Source: Halocatena pleomorpha
Lineage (GTDB): Archaea > Halobacteriota > Halobacteria > Halobacteriales > Haloarculaceae
Direction of reading: 5' to 3'
Length of the DNA: 64,000 nt
Assembly: GCF_003862495.1 (NCBI RefSeq)
Contig: NZ_RRCH01000022.1
Span: forward strand, 62,001 to 126,000
Under the pieces are notes generated by a model. It was not told where the DNA came from. It saw nothing but the letters and a program-made list of their open reading frames with translations, and did no database searches. Position 1 is the first letter of the stretch. Each line of letters begins with the position of its first letter. The translations under genes were made by a program, and so were the position numbers. Below are positions 53,197 to 64,000 of the stretch, piece by piece.

Positions 53197-54186
53197 TCAG
53201 TTGAGCTGCCGTCGGACGCTGGATGTGAGACGCTGAAGCATAGAAGATGAGTGTTCGGTGCGCGTCGCCGTGGTGTACTCCCGCTCCAGAGAGCCATCCT
53301 GTTGGTAGCTCAACAGTCCGATGTCGTGGTTCTGGGCGAGTTCTTCGGCTTGTTTGGTGACCGTTCCAGATGTCGAGACGAGTACGGATCTGGCATCTAC
53401 CGCCGCTGCGGCCGTGTGGAGCCGCTCAACGTCTTCTTGCTCCGGTCGTTCGTGAACGGCACCAATGACGCGGTCGCCCAACAGGTCGTCCTCTCCGTAC
53501 AGATGGACCGGCGTCTCCGTGCTGTCGTTTCGAATGTACGCGTCCACTTCCACCGTGAATCCTCGCTCGTCGAGCATCTCCGCCAGTGCCTGACGTGCCG
53601 ACAGTTGTGTCGTGAGCCATTGCCGTCCGTACTGTTCGAAGCCGTAGCTGTAAAGCACCCACTCGATCGCTTTGTGTGGCTCGCACACCGACAGACACTC
53701 CCGACACCGGAGCGCTCCCACTGAACCGGCCGCAGACTCGCCACACGTCTGACAAACGTGTTGCTGTAACACTTCCATCTGTTCCGGACGGACGGCGAGC
53801 TGACAGTCCGGACAGGCGTATTCGCCCTCGCCCACCCGAAACTGCTCTTCTGGCGCAAGACAACCGCACTCGACGTGTTTGTACAGTTCCTGCTCGATCG
53901 TGTTCTGTGAACCGCACTCTGCGCAGACGGTCGTATACCGCATCCCGTCGCGCCCACACTCGGGGCAGACGTAGGCTTTCTCTCGAAACTCTCGATACAG
54001 TATGTCTCGTCGCGCCAGCGATTCTAACACTGAATAGGCATCTGGATCATTCGCGTCGAGGTGTTGCTCCACGTCCGGATAGCTCACCTCCCCCTCCTCG
54101 TTGATTACTGGTGAAAACTCCTCGACTGTCCCGTCTGCCAACGTCTCCAACAGACGAAGTACCCCTGGTGTGGCCATGCGTTTCAT
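53197..54186 (-). CDS. Cysteine-rich TackOD1-like protein with nuclease-fold-like C-terminal region
   Basis: The 329-residue protein (start 54186 chosen for its distance from TATA-like TTAATAGG; 54177 and 54204 are alternatives) has an N-terminal helical part, then 13 cysteines between about 74 and 168 in CxxC pairs (CPEC, CAEC, CPDC, CQTC, CREC), consistent with three zinc sites. The block KHVECGCLAPEEQF, CPDCQLAVRPEQM and CQTCG resembles the TackOD1 output domain. The last 130 residues (GFTVEVDAYIRNDS, ARSVLVSTSGTVTKQAEELA) look like a restriction-endonuclease-type fold without an evident catalytic set. Role unknown. Confidence 0.65.
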   Translation of the reverse strand: MKRMATPGVLRLLETLADGTVEEFSPVINEEGEVSYPDVEQHLDANDPDAYSVLESLARRDILYREFREKAYVCPECGRDGMRYTTVCAECGSQNTIEQELYKHVECGCLAPEEQFRVGEGEYACPDCQLAVRPEQMEVLQQHVCQTCGESAAGSVGALRCRECLSVCEPHKAIEWVLYSYGFEQYGRQWLTTQLSARQALAEMLDERGFTVEVDAYIRNDSTETPVHLYGEDDLLGDRVIGAVHERPEQEDVERLHTAAAAVDARSVLVSTSGTVTKQAEELAQNHDIGLLSYQQDGSLEREYTTATRTEHSSSMLQRLTSSVRRQLN

Positions 54187-54337
54187 TATTCGATAGCTCT
54201 CCAACCTATTAACTCCTATTCCATGTCCGTTGGTAGAATTTTACGACCCTTCTAGAGCGGGATTGATGCTATCACTGCGGGTGTGAAACGGCTTCGAGCT
54301 ATCGGCGGGTTTTCCTTACCTGCGCTCGACGCGAGTG

Positions 54338-55342
54338 ATGATGGGGGACGAAAGTAGGGCACGAGTGCTTTGGTTCACTCCAGACAAGCCCGAACATATC
54401 AGTGTCGGTCGTCGTCGGATCGCGCAGCGTCTCGAAGCGGATGGCTACCGGGTAACGGTGTGTGGGACGACGCTCGGGACAGTGCGGTCGGCAGTAGGCC
54501 ACCGGAAGCGGTACGACGCGGTGATCGGAACGACGCGAGCGGGTGCCGTGGCAGGGATGTTTCTGTCGGCTCTCGGTGGGCCGCCACTCGTCGTCGACCA
54601 CGTTGATCCGATCGAACAGTTTGAGACCACCCATCCGTGGTGGGTAGCCGTTCCCGTACGGTGGCTCGAACGGGTTGCGTTCGCCGTCGCCGCCCATGTG
54701 CTGTACGTGTACAGCGAGGAGCGCGAGCGGGTGCGTCGATCGTCTGAATCGGTTTCGAACACCGATCTTCCGGTCGATTACGATCGCTTTGCTGATCCGT
54801 CCCAAGAGCGCGTCGCAGTCGCTCATGAGCGGCTTTCGTCGCTCGACGCGGAGCGAACCCTCATCTACGTCGGTGGTCTCGAACCCATCTACCACATCTC
54901 TGCGTTACTCGACGCGATGTCGTCGCTGCCGGCATGGACGCTCGTCGTGCTCGGAACCGGTTCGCTCGAACCCGAGGTTCGACGCGCGGCAACCGAACGG
55001 TCGAACGTCGTGTATCTCGGCACCGTTCCCCACGAAGACGTACCGGGCTATCTCCACGCCGCCGATGTCGGCGTCTGTCTGGTCGACGATCCACACACGC
55101 TGAAGGTGCTCGAATACGGGGCTGCTGGCCTGCCAGTCGTCCAGCTTGCTGGACGAGCGGAGTCGCGTCTGGATGGGCTGGTTACCTTCTGTGAACCCAC
55201 GCCGGCGGACATCGCGCGCGCTGTTCAGTCCGCCGCTGATACTCCCCGATCAGGGGCGCTGCAGACGTTCGTCCGACAGTTCGACGTGGAGACCGTCGCT
55301 GACGACTACGCGAACGCACTCGAAACGGTGATCACGGCGTAA
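54338..55342 (+). CDS. GT4-like glycosyltransferase
   Basis: The 334-residue GT-B protein has VLWFTPDKPEHISVGRRRIA at the start, AAHVLYVYSEERERVRR for the acceptor domain, and the donor half TLIYVGGLEPIYHISALLDA, VVLGTGSLEPEVRRAA, DVPGYLHAADVGVCLVDDPH and TLKVLEYGAAGLPVV. The acidic pair of the E-x7-E motif is reduced. The start could be GTG 54335, ATG 54338 or 54341. It is convergent with the next glycosyltransferase gene, whose end is 11 bases away. Part of the surface-glycan region. Confidence 0.82.
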   Translation: MMGDESRARVLWFTPDKPEHISVGRRRIAQRLEADGYRVTVCGTTLGTVRSAVGHRKRYDAVIGTTRAGAVAGMFLSALGGPPLVVDHVDPIEQFETTHPWWVAVPVRWLERVAFAVAAHVLYVYSEERERVRRSSESVSNTDLPVDYDRFADPSQERVAVAHERLSSLDAERTLIYVGGLEPIYHISALLDAMSSLPAWTLVVLGTGSLEPEVRRAATERSNVVYLGTVPHEDVPGYLHAADVGVCLVDDPHTLKVLEYGAAGLPVVQLAGRAESRLDGLVTFCEPTPADIARAVQSAADTPRSGALQTFVRQFDVETVADDYANALETVITA

Positions 55343-55353
55343 TGTCGACCGAT

Positions 55354-56358
55354 TCATCGGTTCAGGAGATCGTCCCACGCGTCGAGATACTGCTGGGCCG
55401 CACGCTCGGTGTAGTCAGTCATCCGCTCCCTACTCGCGATCGAACGGGCGGCTCGGTGGCGTGGCTCTGAGAGCAGTTCACTCACAGCGTCTTCGATTCC
55501 GGCCGGCGTCGGCGGACAGAGCTGTCCCGCGGTTCCGACCGCCTCGGCGGGACCGCCTGTCGCCCCACAGACGACCGGTAACCCAGCGGCCTCTGCTTCG
55601 AGGACGGCCATCGGCAGCGCGTCGAGGTAGCTGACGTAGACGAACAGATCGGCGCTCCCGAGCAGTTGCGGAACGTCGTCCCGGTGTCCCAGCAGCTCGA
55701 CACGATCGCGGTGAGGGTACGACGCGACGAAATCAGCGACCGTGTCGAACTCCTGTCCGTCGCCAGCGATCACGTACCGGAGATCGTCGATCGTCTCAAA
55801 GACGGCGCGCAACCCTGCTAGAATCGTCGTAACGCCCCTAGCTTTCTGTGGATATCTAAGATTCGTAACTGTCAGTATCGTCGTCTCCGAATCGTCTGCG
55901 GACGTGGTGTTACGAAATCGCGCTACGTCGAACGGTCGATCGACCACCCGATTCGGACCGATGGCGTAGTGCCGACGCATCGCTTCCCGACAGGTCCGGC
56001 TCACAAACAAGGTACAGTCCGCATTGCCAATCACCTGCCTCGTGCGGTGTTTGATCGACTGGTGTTCGATCCAGCTGTGCTGGCCGTGTGCGTTCGTGTA
56101 ATCATCCCACCCTCGGATGCAGACCACCAACGGCGTTCCGTACACTCGTTTCGTGAGCAGGCCCAGCAGTCCGTTCCGTACCGTCTCGTCGGCTTGGAGC
56201 AGATCGTACCGACCAGACAGCGTCCGGGCCACGCGGCTCGGAACCGATCGTGATTGTGAGAGCACATCAATCTCGTAGGCGGGATCGAGTCGCTCGGCGG
56301 TCGCCGCGAGCGCCGCCGCAAAATCCTGTTGGGCGTGGAGCAAGGCGATCCGTGGCAT
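55354..56358 (-). CDS. GT4-family glycosyltransferase
   Basis: The 334-residue protein starts MPRIALLHAQQDFAAALAAT at 56358, where the family-like N-terminus begins; the reading frame stays open upstream but those residues overlap the divergent flippase. LLQADETVRNGLLGLL, CTLFVSRTCREAMRRHY, ILTVTNLRYPQKARGVTTIL, YVIAGDGQEFDTV and SYLDALPMAVLEAEAAGLPVV show a GT-B enzyme with the E-x7-E donor site. Divergent from the MOP flippase by 97 bases. Confidence 0.85.
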   Translation of the reverse strand: MPRIALLHAQQDFAAALAATAERLDPAYEIDVLSQSRSVPSRVARTLSGRYDLLQADETVRNGLLGLLTKRVYGTPLVVCIRGWDDYTNAHGQHSWIEHQSIKHRTRQVIGNADCTLFVSRTCREAMRRHYAIGPNRVVDRPFDVARFRNTTSADDSETTILTVTNLRYPQKARGVTTILAGLRAVFETIDDLRYVIAGDGQEFDTVADFVASYPHRDRVELLGHRDDVPQLLGSADLFVYVSYLDALPMAVLEAEAAGLPVVCGATGGPAEAVGTAGQLCPPTPAGIEDAVSELLSEPRHRAARSIASRERMTDYTERAAQQYLDAWDDLLNR

Positions 56359-56455
56359 TGCTCGGGTATGGGCTGTTCGTCGTGAAACGACCACCGGTTC
56401 ACCTGATCGCAACGGATCCACAACGACTACCACAGGGTGGTGCCTATCGACGGTC

Positions 56456-57991
56456 GTGTCTTCGGATTCGGACGATGCGCTCACACGGGTGGCTTCTGGT
56501 GGGGGGATCGTACTACTCGGTGTGGTTCTGGAGCTTGGGATCTCCTTTCTCGCCAAACTCCTCATCGCCCGCGTCCTCGGTCCGGTCAACTACGGCGTGG
56601 TTTCGCTGGGCGTCACCACGATGGTCGTCGTCTCGACGCTCGTGTTGCTCGGGTTGCACACGGGGGTTGGTCGGTATCTCCCCCGGTTCGAGGGTACCGC
56701 CGACCGTAGGGGGGTGGTGGTATCGGCGTTCCAGACTGCGGTGCCCCTTGCCGTCGCTGCCGGTGGCCTTGTCTATGTGTTCGCACCGGTAATCGCCACT
56801 GCCGGATTCAGTGATCCCGCAGTGACGCCGGTTCTCCGCGTGTTCGGGCTGGTGATCCCGCTCGCTGCCGTGATGAAACTCGCCATCGGAACCAGTCGCG
56901 GACTACAGCAGGTGTTTCCGAAGGTGTCCATCCGGAACATCGTGCTGCCAGTCGTGCGGTTCACGGCGGTGATCGTCGTTCTGTGGCTCGGGTTCGACGC
57001 GCTCGGGGTGGCGTGGGCCTACGCGATCGCCTATACGGGAGCGATGGGTGTCGGTCTCTACTTCCTGTGGCGAGACACCGATCTGTTCGCGTGGGGATCT
57101 CCGGCCACGCCTGTGCGTCGGGAACTGTTGGCGTTCTCCGCGCCGTTAGTGATCTCCACAGCGATGACGTTCGTGTTCTCTGATATTGACACGTTCATGC
57201 TCGGGTACTTCTCTTCGACAGGCGACGTCGGTATCTACAACACGGTGTATCCGCTCGCCCATCTGCTCGCCGTTCCGATGAGTTCGTTCGGATTCATCGT
57301 GATGCCCGTCGTCTCCAAACTCCACGAACGCGGCGAGCACGGCACCGTGCGACAGCTCTACCAGACCACTTCGAAGTGGATCTTCCTCGCGTCGTTTCCA
57401 GTGTTCGCCGTCATCGTGCTCTTTCCAACACACGCAATCAGCCTCACGTTCGGTCCGGCGTACGCGGACGGCTCACTCGCACTCGTCGTGCTTGCCGGCG
57501 CGTTTTTCACGCACGCGATCGCCGGTCCCAACTTCGATCTGCTCACGTCGATCGGCCGAACGCGGCTCATCATGTACGATGACACGTTCGTCGCGCTTCT
57601 TAACGTCGGTCTCAATCTCCTGTTGATCCCCCGGTATTCATTTCTCGGCGCGGCGATCGCAACCACGATCGCGTACGTCCTGATGAACGTCCTGTACAGT
57701 CTCCAACTGTACTTCGAAACCGGCATTCAGCCGCTCACACCGGCACTCCTCCGAACCGCACTCCTCGGCACGACGACGATTGCAGTTCTGTACGGGATCG
57801 TCCAAACCCTGTTTACGGTGACAGTGTCCGTCTTCCTCGGAACGGTCGTCGTGTTCGGTCTGGTGTACCTCATCGTCGTCGTCCGTGTTGCGATCGAACC
57901 ACAAGAGGTCGAACTCCTGTTGGACTTCGAAGAACGGTTCGATCTGAATCTCGGCGTGTTCAAACAACTCGTGAGTCGGCTCCGGAGCTGA
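56456..57991 (+). CDS. MOP-family polysaccharide flippase (Wzx-like)
   Basis: The 511-residue protein begins at GTG 56456 and has 12-14 membrane helices. GGGIVLLGVVLELGISFLAK, then VLGPVNYGVVSLG, LGLHTGVGRYLPRFEG, and YFSSTGDVGIYNTVYPLAH are typical of membrane proteins that move lipid-linked oligosaccharides across the membrane. Its neighbours are two glycosyltransferases, which fits assembly and export of a surface glycan or S-layer N-glycan. Confidence 0.9.
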   Translation: MSSDSDDALTRVASGGGIVLLGVVLELGISFLAKLLIARVLGPVNYGVVSLGVTTMVVVSTLVLLGLHTGVGRYLPRFEGTADRRGVVVSAFQTAVPLAVAAGGLVYVFAPVIATAGFSDPAVTPVLRVFGLVIPLAAVMKLAIGTSRGLQQVFPKVSIRNIVLPVVRFTAVIVVLWLGFDALGVAWAYAIAYTGAMGVGLYFLWRDTDLFAWGSPATPVRRELLAFSAPLVISTAMTFVFSDIDTFMLGYFSSTGDVGIYNTVYPLAHLLAVPMSSFGFIVMPVVSKLHERGEHGTVRQLYQTTSKWIFLASFPVFAVIVLFPTHAISLTFGPAYADGSLALVVLAGAFFTHAIAGPNFDLLTSIGRTRLIMYDDTFVALLNVGLNLLLIPRYSFLGAAIATTIAYVLMNVLYSLQLYFETGIQPLTPALLRTALLGTTTIAVLYGIVQTLFTVTVSVFLGTVVVFGLVYLIVVVRVAIEPQEVELLLDFEERFDLNLGVFKQLVSRLRS

Positions 57992-58041: not shown

Positions 58042-59073
58042 ATGGCCGAGTTTGGAAAGATCGATCGGTCGTTTTTCGACGCGTACATCCAGCCGAACCT
58101 CGGAGCTGAGCGCGAGGACGTGACGCTCTGGCCCGACCACGGGGTGGATTTCGGAGTGATCGACGTTGATGGGACGGCTGTCGTCATGGCGACTGATCCC
58201 GTCTTCATCATGCCGTCGCTGGGCATGGAGCGCGCGGCGTGGTTCGCGTTTCACATCCTCATGAGCGACGTAGCGGTCTCGGGACTCCCACCGAGCCATC
58301 TGAGCATCGATTTTAACCTCCCGTCCGACATCACTGATGAGGCGTTTGAGACGGTATGGACGACGATGGACGCCGAGGCGACCGAGTTGGGAGTGAGCGT
58401 CGTCACCGGTCACACCGCTCGGTATGAGGGCTGTAACTACCCGATGATCGGCGGCGGAACGACTGTCGCAGTCGGTGATCACGACGACGTGATCCGCCCT
58501 GACGGCGCGCAGGTCGGTGACCGCGTCGTGATCACCAACGGTCCCGCTATCGAAGCGACGGGACTGCTATCGGTCCAGTTCGAGTCGCGGATGCGCGCGG
58601 AGCTGGACGAAACGACCGTTGACAAGGCGAACGAGCGGTTTTACGACATGAGTCCCGTCCGTGACGCGCTGACGGCGGCTGACGCGGGACCGGTGACCGC
58701 GATGCACGACGCGACCGAGTGCGGCGTGTACGGCGGACTGTACGAATTCGCGCGTGCAGCGGGCGTCGGACTCGATGTCGATCGGAGCGCTATTCCGGTG
58801 GCTCCGGGCGTCGAGGAGACGTGTGCCTTCTTCGATATCGATCCGTGGTCAGCGATCAGTGAGGGCACACTCATCGCGTCGGTGCGCCCCGACGGCGTCG
58901 ACGACGTGCTCGGCGCGCTCGAAGCCGACGGTATTCCGGCCGCTGTCGTCGGCAGCGTCGTCGAGGACAGCGGCGTCGTCGTGGACGGCGAGCCGATCGA
59001 CCACCCCGGAAAGGATCCGTTCTGGGCGGCGATGGCGGAGTACGCCGCGAAAGAGGAGGCGAGCAACGAATGA
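58042..59073 (+). CDS. AIR synthase (PurM/HypE/ThiL)-family protein
   Basis: The 343-residue protein has the PurM-type ATP-binding core: VVMATDPVFIMPSLGM (about 47-62), ILMSDVAVSGLPPSHLSID, VTGHTARYEGCNYPMIGGGT, and VTAMHDATECGVYGGLYEFA. It is closest to HypE-like proteins found in organisms without hydrogenase. The gene overlaps thiDN by four bases, so a role in thiamine synthesis (for example as a ThiL-like kinase) is suggested, but the key residues cannot be judged by eye. Confidence 0.8.
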   Translation: MAEFGKIDRSFFDAYIQPNLGAEREDVTLWPDHGVDFGVIDVDGTAVVMATDPVFIMPSLGMERAAWFAFHILMSDVAVSGLPPSHLSIDFNLPSDITDEAFETVWTTMDAEATELGVSVVTGHTARYEGCNYPMIGGGTTVAVGDHDDVIRPDGAQVGDRVVITNGPAIEATGLLSVQFESRMRAELDETTVDKANERFYDMSPVRDALTAADAGPVTAMHDATECGVYGGLYEFARAAGVGLDVDRSAIPVAPGVEETCAFFDIDPWSAISEGTLIASVRPDGVDDVLGALEADGIPAAVVGSVVEDSGVVVDGEPIDHPGKDPFWAAMAEYAAKEEASNE

Positions 59074-60437
59074 GCCGAACGGACGCGCCGACTACCCTGC
59101 CAGTCACGCTGACGATCGCCGGAAGCGATTCCGGTGGTGGGGCAGGGATTCAAGCCGATCTCAAGACGATGGCCGCGTGTGGGACGTTCGGGACCTCGGT
59201 CCTCACGGCGGTGACCGCCCAGAACACCCAGGGAGTCAACTCCTCCTTCGCCGTCCCCACAGCGGAAATCGACGCCCAGCTCCGGGCCATCCGCTCGGAT
59301 TTCGATATCGCTGCTATCAAAACAGGGATGTTGGCGACGGCCGAGACCGTCGACCTCGTCGCCGAACACGCGCGTTCGTTCGACTGCCCGCTCGTCGTCG
59401 ATCCGGTGATGGTCGCAACGTCGGGCGACCGCCTGCTGGCCGAGAACGCGATGGACGCCTACGACGATCTTATTGCGCACGCAACGCTCGTCACGCCCAA
59501 CACCGACGAGGTGGCGATGCTCACGGGAATCGAGCCGGAGAACGAGCGCGACATGCGCGACGCTGGCGAGCGACTGCTTGACCGTGGATGTGACGCTGCC
59601 CTCCTCACTGGAGGCCATCTCCCGACAGACGACGTGCGCGACGTGCTTGTTACGCTTGAACACGTTCACACTGTCACCCACTCGCGGATCGACACGGTGG
59701 CGACACACGGTGCGGGCTGTACGCTCTCCAGTGCTATCACTGCCTACCTCGGACGGCAGTCCGACGGCGACGATGGAGATCTCCGCACAGCAGTCGAGGC
59801 GTCCACCGCGTTCCTCGAACGGGCGATCCGGTACCACCACGACGTGGGGGCAGGACCGGGAGCCGTCCACCACGCGGTCTCACTGCGCGAACGCGCAGCC
59901 AGACAGCCCGTACAAGAAGCAATCGCGGCGCTTGTCGACTCGCTCACTGCGGAAAACGTTCGGGCATTGGTTCCGGAAGTCGGGATGAACGTCGTCGGAG
60001 CCACGCCCTACGCAGAGACGACCGACGAAATCGCTGCTGTCGAAGGTCGGATCACGAAAACGATCGATGGGATGCAACCGAACCGAGGCGTGCGCTTCGG
60101 TGCGTCGAGTCACATGGCCCGATTCCTGCTCTCGTTGCGCGAACACGATCCCACCGTCCGTTTCGGTGTGAACTGTCGGCTCGGAGACGACACCGACGCC
60201 GCGCTCGACACGCTTCAGTGGCCTGTCGGTGCGTACGATCGGAGCGAGGAACCCACTGCCGACGTGGAGGACTCGACTATGGGGTGGGGCGCACAGCAGG
60301 CGTTCAACTCCGTCGCTGGGACACCCGTCGCCGTCGTTGATGGCGGTGCGCACGGCAAAGAGCCGATCGTGAAACTCCTCGCCCGCGATCCAGAGACGCT
60401 GCTCGATAGGATCACGACGCTCCACGACAAACTGTGA
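59070..60437 (+). CDS. thiDN: ThiD-ThiN fusion: HMP(-P) kinase and thiamine-phosphate synthase
   Basis: The 455-residue protein joins ThiD (about 1-265) and ThiN (about 275-455). ThiD shows TIAGSDSGGGAGIQADLKTM (about 15-34), VLTAVTAQNTQGV, VDPVMVATSGDRLL and the anion-hole-bearing THGAGCTLSSAITAYLG. ThiN shows VPEVGMNVVGATPYAETTDE, RFGASSHMARFLLSLR and GAHGKEPIVKLLARDPET. It phosphorylates HMP twice and couples it to the thiazole phosphate. The fusion is usual in archaea. It overlaps the AIR-synthase-like gene by four bases. Confidence 0.93.
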   Translation: MSRTDAPTTLPVTLTIAGSDSGGGAGIQADLKTMAACGTFGTSVLTAVTAQNTQGVNSSFAVPTAEIDAQLRAIRSDFDIAAIKTGMLATAETVDLVAEHARSFDCPLVVDPVMVATSGDRLLAENAMDAYDDLIAHATLVTPNTDEVAMLTGIEPENERDMRDAGERLLDRGCDAALLTGGHLPTDDVRDVLVTLEHVHTVTHSRIDTVATHGAGCTLSSAITAYLGRQSDGDDGDLRTAVEASTAFLERAIRYHHDVGAGPGAVHHAVSLRERAARQPVQEAIAALVDSLTAENVRALVPEVGMNVVGATPYAETTDEIAAVEGRITKTIDGMQPNRGVRFGASSHMARFLLSLREHDPTVRFGVNCRLGDDTDAALDTLQWPVGAYDRSEEPTADVEDSTMGWGAQQAFNSVAGTPVAVVDGGAHGKEPIVKLLARDPETLLDRITTLHDKL

Positions 60438-60675: not shown

Positions 60676-60690
60676 CCGTTTCCCAAACGG
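60676..60690. promoter_or_regulatory. Palindrome before the HEAT-repeat gene
   Basis: CCGTTT-CCC-AAACGG is a perfect 6+6 inverted repeat just upstream of a TATA-like GGTTATCACA (60689-60698), which is about 25 bases before the start. Its position over the BRE suits a repressor or activator site. Inferred from position. Confidence 0.4.
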
Positions 60691-60718
60691 TTATCACATG
60701 TCTCTAATAGTAGGATGT

Positions 60719-63700
60719 ATGGATCCGGAATCCCACTCCGGTGAATTCGACATCTCCCTCGATCAGATTTACGCCGACCCAGACGATATTGCAGATACGG
60801 AAATTCCCTCCCTCGTCTCGGTTCTCGACGGCGAAACGGAGATGGAACGGCCCGTGAGTGAGACCGGACACACAGCACAGCTGCTCGACACCGATCCTGA
60901 AGAAACGGATCCCGAGCGGCTTATTGCTGCTTCGCGCTTGCGACTGTTCGTCAGTGCTGGTTACCGGGACGCCGTTGCGACGCACGCGGAGACGATCATC
61001 GCCGGGATGACTGCGGACAGCAACAGTGTTTCCCTCCGACAACAGGCCGCCCACATCGTGATCACGATCTTTGCGGACGAGCGCGTGGACATTTCACCGG
61101 TGTCGAACGAGTTCATCGAACACACAGACGCACTCATCGAACTTCTGGAGGCTGATCTTCCGCGTGTTCGTCGGGCAGCAGTGTACGCGATCGCAGCGGT
61201 CGCAAAACAGTCGCCGGGATCCGCCGCTCCCGCCGTAGACGCGCTCATCCCGCTGTTGGACGAGGGGTCGTCCGATCTCGATCAGAGGATCGTAGCGGCA
61301 CTCACTGCGATCGCGGAGAGTTCACCGACGGCCGCTGTCCCTGCCATCGGTCCACTCATGTCACTCCTTGAAGCCGACACGCAGACGACTCGGGTGCGAG
61401 CCGAGTACGCGATCAAGCTCCTCATCGAAAACGCACCATCAGCGCCCGAAACAGCCGTCGACCACCTCATTCCACTGCTCGACAGCGACAGTTCGTTCGC
61501 TCAAAACGCCGCACTGGAGGTACTCGCCGGAATCACGCTCACTACTCCGGAATCCGTGGCGTCCGTGGTCGAGGAGATCACACCGTTTCTCACTGGAGAC
61601 ACCTATCAGCAAAAGATCGCGGTGTGTACGCTCTGTGAGATCGCTGAAGCGTCGCCGGCGGCGGTCGTTCCTGCTGTCGATGACATCGTTCCGCTGCTCG
61701 ATGCTGAGGATCAGATCGTCAAAAGCGCGGCGGTGCATACCATCGTCGCCATCGCAGAGGAGTCACCGTCGGATGTCACCGAGGCGTACGATTCGCTGTT
61801 TTCCCTTCTTAACGCCAAAGAGACGAATGTACAGAAGGCTGCCATCCACGCTATTATCGTTATCACGAGCAACGTCCCGGAAACAGTCGGTCCCGTCATC
61901 GAGTCGTTGCTTTCCCCCCTCGATACCGATGAATCGTTCGTCCGCGAACAGGCTGCGCGCACGATTGCAGCGCTCACCCAAGGTGAGACACAGCCGGCCG
62001 TTCCCGCTGTCGACGCGCTCACGACGCTTTTGAACGCCGACGAATCCGTGGGGCGAAAGCTGGCAGTGCGCTCGATCGTCGAGATCGCGTCCGACGTTCC
62101 CGACACCGCTGTGCCGGCAGTCGATCCATTGTTGTTTCTTCTCGATTCGGATCAACCAGTAGTTCAAAAGTACGTGGCGGCAGCGATCATGGTCGTCGCT
62201 GCTTCCTCTCCACAGGCAGCAGCACCCGCAGTCAGGCCTCTCATTTCGTTGCTCGGGCAGGACAACGACGTTGACGGTCTCGTCGCGCGCTCGCTCGCTG
62301 AAATAAGCGTCGATGATCCCGATGCGGTGGTCCCTGCCGCCCAAGCGATGATTCCGTTGCTCGACGCCGAACGGATGTCCGTCCGAACGAATGCGGTGCG
62401 CGTGCTCGCTAGCGTCGCTGAAGTGGACCCGACCGCCGTGGTACCGGCAGTCGACTCGCTCAGTCGACTGCTCGACAGCGATGAGCGTCTCATCCGGTGG
62501 AAAGCGGCGTGTGCGCTTTGTGATGTTGCCCTCGAATCCCCGCGAGCGGTCGCCCCCGCGATCGAAGCACTCACGCCGCTGCTCGACAGCGAGTGGACGT
62601 CTCTCCGGAAGAAAACCGTTAGCATCGCCGCTGAGGTCGCTCGCGTTTCACCGTCCGCAGTGGCTCCTGCCGTGGAACCGCTTTCGATGTGCTTGGACGC
62701 AGACGAGGCGGCGATCCGACGGTACGGGGCGTGTGCGCTCGCGGAGTTAGCGAGCGAGCACCCCGAGAGGGCAACCCCCGCAGTGGATCGGTTGGTGGCC
62801 CAACTCGCCGGAGAGACAGACCAACAGTACGTCCAGGAGTGTGCAGTGCAGGCACTCGCAGAGATCGCCACGACGACACCGAGGGAAGTAGTACCGGCGA
62901 TCGACACGTTGGCCGATCTGTACGACGCCGACTCGGTCACACTCAAAGAGAACGCGCTGTACGCAACCGCCGAGATCGCCACCTCCATGCCTGAATCCGT
63001 GGTTCCGGTCGTCGACTCGCTCCTCCCTCACCTCACCGCCGAAACGGTTCCTGTTCAAAAAGCCGCGATCCGATCGGTCGTGTTAGTTGCAAAACACCTT
63101 CCGCCGACGATGGTTCCGGGTATCGACTCGCTGCTTCCCCGTTTTGGGGCCGATGAGATCCGTGACCAGCGGACGACCGTGGAGGCACTCACTGCGATCG
63201 CCTCGATTCCGCCGGAGAACGAGGACCAGCGCGTCGAGACCGAGCGTGAGAACGCCGTCGCTACCCTTGGTCGGTTGCTTGAGACCGGTGACACGCTCGG
63301 ACGGAAGTTCGCGGTGACTGCGTTGGCAGTGATCGCTGAGAGTGCGCCCACGGCTGCTGGGACCGCGATCGACTCGCTCGTTCCCCTGTTGAATGACGAC
63401 GATCCGTACGCCAAAGAGCTGGCAGTGCAAGCGACTGTGCTGATCGCGTACGGTTCGCCCGCGTCAGCCATGCCTGCCGTGGACGAACTGATCACCCTGC
63501 TTGAAGACGACAACGTCTATCTCCAGCACGGGGCGGTGATCGGTATCGGCTGGATCGCCAAAGGCTCGCCAGCGGCAGCAGTTCCGGCTACTGACGCCCT
63601 CGTTTCCTTTCTGTACAGTCACGAGAAACTCGTCCGGAAGACCGCGGTGTACGCGATCGCACAGATTGCAGACAACGATCCGGAGGCGGCACTGCCAGCC

Positions 63701-64000
63701 ACAGACGCGCTGGAACACTGTCTTACTGCGGACGATTCGTACGTCCGCACGCACGCTGTCGGAGCACTCGAATCGATCGCGCTCGCTCCCGCCGGTGACA
63801 CGATGCCACCGATCTGTTCGCTGGCGGCACTCGTTGACGACACCGATCACGCTATCCAGAAACAGGCTGCGCGCGCAACCGCCGCGATCGCAACGACCCA
63901 ACCGGGAACTGCCGCCCCCGCGGTTGACGTGCTCGTGGGGCATCTCGACGCCGACCGAACCACACAGGAGCTTGCAGTCCGGACGATCATGGAGATCACG
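60719..64000 (+). CDS. Giant HEAT-repeat protein, 3' end beyond window
   Basis: An open frame of 1,094 codons runs from ATG 60719 to the window edge without a stop. After about 80 acidic residues it consists of about 25 units averaging 37 residues (112 bases). The consensus is VPAVDxLIPLLDxD, then xxVRxxAxxAIAxIAxxSP, which is a HEAT/PBS-lyase-type alpha solenoid, here with an AVD at the start of helix B in most units. No membrane segment or catalytic domain is visible. It is probably a scaffold or binding protein. An ATG at 60715 is out of frame. The next unit continues past 64000. Confidence 0.85.
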   Translation, partial: MDPESHSGEFDISLDQIYADPDDIADTEIPSLVSVLDGETEMERPVSETGHTAQLLDTDPEETDPERLIAASRLRLFVSAGYRDAVATHAETIIAGMTADSNSVSLRQQAAHIVITIFADERVDISPVSNEFIEHTDALIELLEADLPRVRRAAVYAIAAVAKQSPGSAAPAVDALIPLLDEGSSDLDQRIVAALTAIAESSPTAAVPAIGPLMSLLEADTQTTRVRAEYAIKLLIENAPSAPETAVDHLIPLLDSDSSFAQNAALEVLAGITLTTPESVASVVEEITPFLTGDTYQQKIAVCTLCEIAEASPAAVVPAVDDIVPLLDAEDQIVKSAAVHTIVAIAEESPSDVTEAYDSLFSLLNAKETNVQKAAIHAIIVITSNVPETVGPVIESLLSPLDTDESFVREQAARTIAALTQGETQPAVPAVDALTTLLNADESVGRKLAVRSIVEIASDVPDTAVPAVDPLLFLLDSDQPVVQKYVAAAIMVVAASSPQAAAPAVRPLISLLGQDNDVDGLVARSLAEISVDDPDAVVPAAQAMIPLLDAERMSVRTNAVRVLASVAEVDPTAVVPAVDSLSRLLDSDERLIRWKAACALCDVALESPRAVAPAIEALTPLLDSEWTSLRKKTVSIAAEVARVSPSAVAPAVEPLSMCLDADEAAIRRYGACALAELASEHPERATPAVDRLVAQLAGETDQQYVQECAVQALAEIATTTPREVVPAIDTLADLYDADSVTLKENALYATAEIATSMPESVVPVVDSLLPHLTAETVPVQKAAIRSVVLVAKHLPPTMVPGIDSLLPRFGADEIRDQRTTVEALTAIASIPPENEDQRVETERENAVATLGRLLETGDTLGRKFAVTALAVIAESAPTAAGTAIDSLVPLLNDDDPYAKELAVQATVLIAYGSPASAMPAVDELITLLEDDNVYLQHGAVIGIGWIAKGSPAAAVPATDALVSFLYSHEKLVRKTAVYAIAQIADNDPEAALPATDALEHCLTADDSYVRTHAVGALESIALAPAGDTMPPICSLAALVDDTDHAIQKQAARATAAIATTQPGTAAPAVDVLVGHLDADRTTQELAVRTIMEIT

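Follow-up and report, generated by a model that had tools for sequence, protein, structure and literature searches.

A giant HEAT-repeat protein of the genus Halocatena, probably a protein-binding scaffold

At the right-hand end of a 64,000-nucleotide stretch of the Halocatena pleomorpha genome (hereafter the window; contig C15:62001-126000 of a 3.65 Mb genome in 61 contigs) lies a gene for a very long HEAT-repeat protein, which raises the question of what an archaeal cell would do with such a molecule and when it acquired it. Giant HEAT scaffolds are regarded as a eukaryotic habit. An earlier note on this DNA had held that large ones are rarely described in archaea, which is fair for the literature consulted, but the proteins themselves are not rare, another haloarchaeal family having HEAT proteins of 1,395-1,453 aa (L075:2431-6618, L076:4459-8769 and L077:2847-7208). 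Alpha-solenoids as a whole are reported to make up roughly one in every 1,200 proteins of archaea, most of them HEAT_PBS-related (PMC3837014). The explanation we favor, with moderate confidence, is that the Halocatena protein is a lineage-restricted HEAT solenoid serving as a passive protein-binding scaffold, with its partners held at a few conserved stretches and its repeat array predating the genus.

On re-reading, the frame was open over 60719-64000 of the forward strand, 1,094 codons, just as first reported, and following it past the window edge led to a stop at C15:126282, 282 bases further on, giving a protein of 1,187 aa. The ATG at 60719 is common to six orthologues, which supports the start. 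A frame break in the reads, raised in the earlier note, is contradicted by the same intact frame in six divergent orthologues, and an artefact was rejected on that ground; the lone TGA within the match in two of the genomes (G002 and G003) is where their gene naturally ends, the match extending beyond the stop codon. The gene and its parts are as follows.

60719..64000, forward strand: giant HEAT-repeat gene, 1,187 aa, with its stop at window-equivalent 64282 (contig C15:122719-126282)
60719..61117, forward strand: N-terminal region, residues 1-133, a low-confidence head and a few helices without a recognised domain
61118..64000, forward strand: HEAT units 1 to 26, the last of them cut by the window edge; its remainder and units 27-28 follow outside, up to window-equivalent 64246

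Autocorrelation of hydrophobicity along the protein has its peak at 37 aa and harmonics at 74 and 111 aa, and an iterative profile resolves 28 consecutive head-to-tail units in residues 134-1176, each ~37 aa (111 bp) and nearly all between 36 and 39 aa long. Summed over the 28 units the score is 1,436 bits, whereas 200 shuffled versions of the protein never exceeded 6 bits; because this very protein had served to train the profile, the comparison gives strength and not independence. Pfam models score far above their cut-offs (HEAT_EZ, PF13513, 151 bits against 27; HEAT_2, PF13646, 118 against 27.7), and searches with models of the Pfam/NCBIfam type returned no domain besides HEAT-type repeats. 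Together with the predicted fold, these results bear out the giant solenoid of at least 25 units first proposed, with some corrections of detail. The frame had been described as repeats almost throughout, which holds from residue 134, but the first ~133 residues are without clear HEAT units; the spacing is as regular as claimed, but measures 111 bp rather than 112; and the AVD motif, taken for the start of helix B, in fact opens the first helix (A) of each unit. A Pfam search of the first 133 residues gave no match, and in the model the pLDDT falls below 60 at residues 1-20 and at about 40-60, with helices from residue 65, some of which may be degenerate units.

The AlphaFold2 model, built with six orthologues, consists of paired helices throughout, arranged as an alpha-solenoid (mean pLDDT 81, or 84 for residues 801-1187 modeled alone). 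Compared with ARM/HEAT proteins it gives Z-scores of about 26-33 over ~350 residues at 5-10 Å rmsd, and searches of structure libraries return ARM/HEAT proteins of many functions, no single family being prominent. The modeling thus supports a predicted fold of stacked HEAT repeats.

Such regularity had been read as a mark of recent duplication, and repeat-to-repeat identity had been proposed as a means of dating it. Measured in this way, the array is old. Within the protein, identity from unit to unit averages 28% (maximum 51%; 45% in DNA), and neighbours are no more alike than units far apart, while units at the same position in different species average 86, 77, 55, 54 and 52% identity, and in 21-28 of the 28 cases a unit is most similar to the one at its own position. 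Low identity from unit to unit beside high identity at the same position implies that the duplications are older than the genus Halocatena. The regular spacing is maintained by the fold and is no sign of recency, and the length of the array has hardly changed since the genus arose. Halocatena marina provides an exception, its units 13 and 14 being 73% identical with long identical stretches of DNA; at this place (L016, residues about 571-644) the DNA of the two units is nearly identical over about 80 bases, apparently through a local duplication or homogenisation of recent date, within an array that is old elsewhere.

The dN/dS ratios of 0.10-0.26 (Nei-Gojobori count, with synonymous sites near saturation in distant pairs) indicate that the protein is under purifying selection. 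Its conservation is concentrated in three places.

61892..62332, forward strand: conservation hotspot I, units 8-11 (residues 392-538), exposed positions 35-61% invariant among six orthologues, against a mean of 29%
63362..63583, forward strand: conservation hotspot II, units 21-22 (residues 882-955), including QHGAVIGIGWIAKGSP, exposed helix-B positions 90% invariant
63917..64000, forward strand: conservation hotspot III (its start), units 26-27 (residues 1067-1139, extending past the window), with invariant positions

Exposed and buried positions were told apart by mean hydrophobicity per repeat position and not by model coordinates. The variance between units in the conservation of exposed positions was reached in 0 of 5,000 permutations, a test that treats sequence positions as independent and draws on six orthologues of one genus. 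Units 8-11, 21-22 and 26-27 look like binding sites, but they are candidates and not proof, because six sequences from a single genus are few.

A scaffold role had already been suggested from the regularity of the units, and it is still the most plausible one given the solenoid fold. Duplication built the array before Halocatena diversified, after which its length was kept while its sequence drifted under purifying selection. The product would be a soluble all-helical rod or superhelix, a short N-terminal region followed by 28 HEAT units; partners would dock at units 8-11, 21-22 and 26-27, mostly by contact with helix B, and the remainder of the rod would set the spacing of the docked partners. 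The charge composition (D+E 15% against K+R 6%) fits a soluble haloarchaeal cytosolic protein. Binding of proteins, with the patches as docking sites, seems to us the most likely function; because the ligands of HEAT solenoids can equally be nucleic acids, lipids or small molecules, and such solenoids can have enzyme activity, the term protein scaffold rests here on the general behaviour of the fold.

Full-length orthologues were found in all 7 Halocatena genomes, the six others being 50-85% identical to the window protein; the set includes 'Actinarchaeum halophilum', as taxonomy places Actinarchaeum under Halocatena. Two conserved peptides, scanned against 84,980 species, matched at four loci, in YIM A00010, YIM A00013, Halocatena marina DFN5 and Actinarchaeum halophilum YIM 93972. 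With the best few candidates per genome scored, there was no orthologue in the 139 other genomes among the 146 searched in the family, and across 391 genomes of the class only partial HEAT similarity of about 30% outside the genus. A profile of the last 387 residues gave 602-686 bits within the genus and at most 70 elsewhere (59 genomes). By these searches the gene is confined to Halocatena. A viral origin was rejected, as the viral-contig scan gave no relative and the viral fold matches were weak and generic.

The interest of the protein lies in the lineage to which it is confined, several members of which have been reported with mycelium and spores. Strains YIM 93972 and YIM A00010-A00014 form mycelium and H. 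pleomorpha has a similar differentiated morphology, and 61 genes, described as gained, are unique to 7 morphogenetic haloarchaeal strains (PMC10067837). It could be hypothesized that the scaffold helped this lineage to evolve hyphae and spores, having originated in or been acquired by the earliest Halocatena and bringing partners together for growth as filaments or for sporulation, which we hold to be unlikely. A link to hyphae and spores fits the distribution of the protein, and that distribution is compatible with a place in the 61-gene set. The main text of that study mentions no HEAT protein, and the gene also occurs in H. marina, a species absent from that main text. Co-occurrence with hyphae is weak evidence, because presence in one clade amounts to a single evolutionary event. 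Should the protein prove to take part in forming mycelium and spores, it would offer a concrete and testable way into the organisation of a complex archaeal cell; otherwise it is still evidence that haloarchaeal lineages each maintain giant HEAT proteins of their own.

The surroundings of the gene bear on a rival reading. Its promoter and upstream neighbours are:

60681..60718, forward strand: conserved promoter block TCCCAAACGGTTATCACA..., aligned in six orthologues, whose TATA-like GTTAT lies some 27 bases upstream of the ATG
59070..60437, forward strand: ThiD-ThiN fusion, a thiamine enzyme (ThiDN; Pfam PF08543 and PF10120), adjoining the HEAT gene upstream
58042..59073, forward strand: AIR-synthase-related protein (Pfam PF00586/PF02769), upstream of ThiDN

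The 38-base block (TCCCAAACGATTATCACA...ATAGTAG) stands directly before the ATG and is conserved while the proteins fall to 50% identity. In each of the 7 genus genomes the exact block has one site, at the HEAT gene; a search allowing up to 3 mismatches gave the exact block only there, and a shared promoter regulon was rejected. A TATA-like core ~27 bases before the ATG is the spacing expected for a leaderless haloarchaeal transcript, and suggests that the HEAT gene may be transcribed in this way. ThiDN adjoins the HEAT gene in every genus genome examined, and psmB, encoding the 20S proteasome beta-subunit, follows the HEAT gene directly and convergently in the window genome and five other genus genomes examined. 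The order within the genus is ThiDN, the HEAT gene and then psmB, which lies on the opposite strand; the first gap measures 108-396 bases and the second 35-547. In genomes from outside Halocatena the distance between ThiDN and psmB ranges from tens of kilobases to megabases, where they share a contig at all, and the loci read there had no HEAT gene beside either; from this comparison the arrangement looks like one that arose in the ancestor of the genus. Between the window genome and YIM 93972 the HEAT protein is 53% identical, psmB 84% and ThiDN 65%, which implies that the HEAT protein evolves faster than its neighbours. Further upstream, two glycosyltransferases and a polysaccharide flippase (window 54335-57991) are partly conserved in other genus genomes, and 53197-54204 on the reverse strand encodes a TackOD1-domain protein with a borderline Mrr-type nuclease-like C-terminus.

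The position of psmB next to a large HEAT gene, together with a weak ECM29 match alongside strong generic HEAT matches, speaks for a proteasome adaptor or activator docking its solenoid on the 20S core in the manner of eukaryotic Ecm29 or PA200/Blm10. We nevertheless think this improbable. The adjacency is weak functional evidence and carries little weight, because the two genes converge from opposite strands and unrelated genes of this region also keep their order throughout the genus. Moreover, the HbYX docking motif ends none of the six orthologues, whose C-terminal tails are not conserved (...SERAL, ...SSESE, ...RHENG, ...PQPHR in two, ...ITEDY), the Pfam matches do not include the PA200 C-terminal domain PF11919, and archaea yielded no relative of PA200 in a published survey (PMC4453063).

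A role in chromosome condensation, cohesion or cargo binding, like that of the condensin HEAT subunits, PDS5 or the karyopherins, is less credible still. The giant protein does match Cnd1 (114.6 bits), Adaptin_N (159.6) and PDS5 (62.3) above the Pfam cut-offs, but the unrelated haloarchaeal HEAT protein L075 does equally well (132.9, 124.1 and 89.8), and even 245-aa HEAT proteins give weak matches. Since unrelated HEAT proteins score alike, these matches appear to be generic and to measure repeat content. Similarly, the top PDB matches in Foldseek include CAND1, karyopherins and SF3B1, but with TM-scores of about 0.2 and rmsd of 20-30 Å, and no SMC-like or kleisin-like gene is prominent among the annotated neighbours. 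The window genome also has two paralogous cassettes (L008:2292-4575 and L010:2545-4805), each with a 245-aa HEAT protein followed by a protein of 505-512 aa, the latter giving no Pfam match above cut-off in either cassette.

An enzyme of the HEAT-repeat class is scarcely probable, as the bilin (phycobilisome) lyase assignment, which the earlier note had named as a refutation of its reading, fails, with CpeY at 25 bits against a cut-off of 600, CpcE at 54 against 330 (H. marina orthologue) and no HEAT_PBS (PF03130) match in Pfam for the full protein. NCBIfam DVU0298 (NF045662) gave 161 bits against a cut-off of 75, its best stretch covering 94 of 213 positions, and the unrelated L075 scored 166.8. 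A PADLOC match to OloA (52 bits on a partial stretch) was taken as generic HEAT similarity, and anti-phage defence was set aside.

Returning to the scaffold reading, the giant Halocatena protein belongs to a known kind, the HEAT/ARM alpha-solenoids. Like the scaffolds CAND1, the importins and the PP2A A subunit, it has tandem two-helix units of ~37 aa, an alpha-solenoid model and no other domain; unlike them, its array is unusually regular, and beyond the repeat it is unrelated to any one eukaryotic family. With Ecm29 and PA200/Blm10 it shares the large HEAT solenoid and a gene adjoining psmB, but it differs from them in its C-terminus, in the opposite strand of psmB and in an adjacency limited to the genus. 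The 1,395-1,453 aa haloarchaeal proteins also have a long HEAT array, about 30% identical over up to 741 residues, but their gene neighbours differ from those of the Halocatena gene, and L075, the copy tested, ends in a PQQ/BamB-like beta-propeller. Their best registers against it are flat (244, 210, 194 and 178 for G378), while a true orthologue scores 1,326 against 371 for the best shifted register; in the absence of a preferred repeat register orthology was rejected, and the two kinds of giant appear to be homologous in their repeats and not orthologues. In L077 the giant HEAT gene adjoins an apparent topoisomerase gene. A haloarchaeal HEAT protein whose role has been tested is OE2401F of Halobacterium salinarum, a HEAT_PBS taxis protein. 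Unlike the Halocatena gene, that of OE2401F sits among chemotaxis genes, and its product functions in flagellar switching (PMC2666748); the morphogenetic strains, including H. pleomorpha, are reported to be without an archaellum (PMC10067837). As a haloarchaeal HEAT protein that binds CheY, FlaCE and others (PMC2666748), OE2401F nevertheless stands as a precedent for protein binding.
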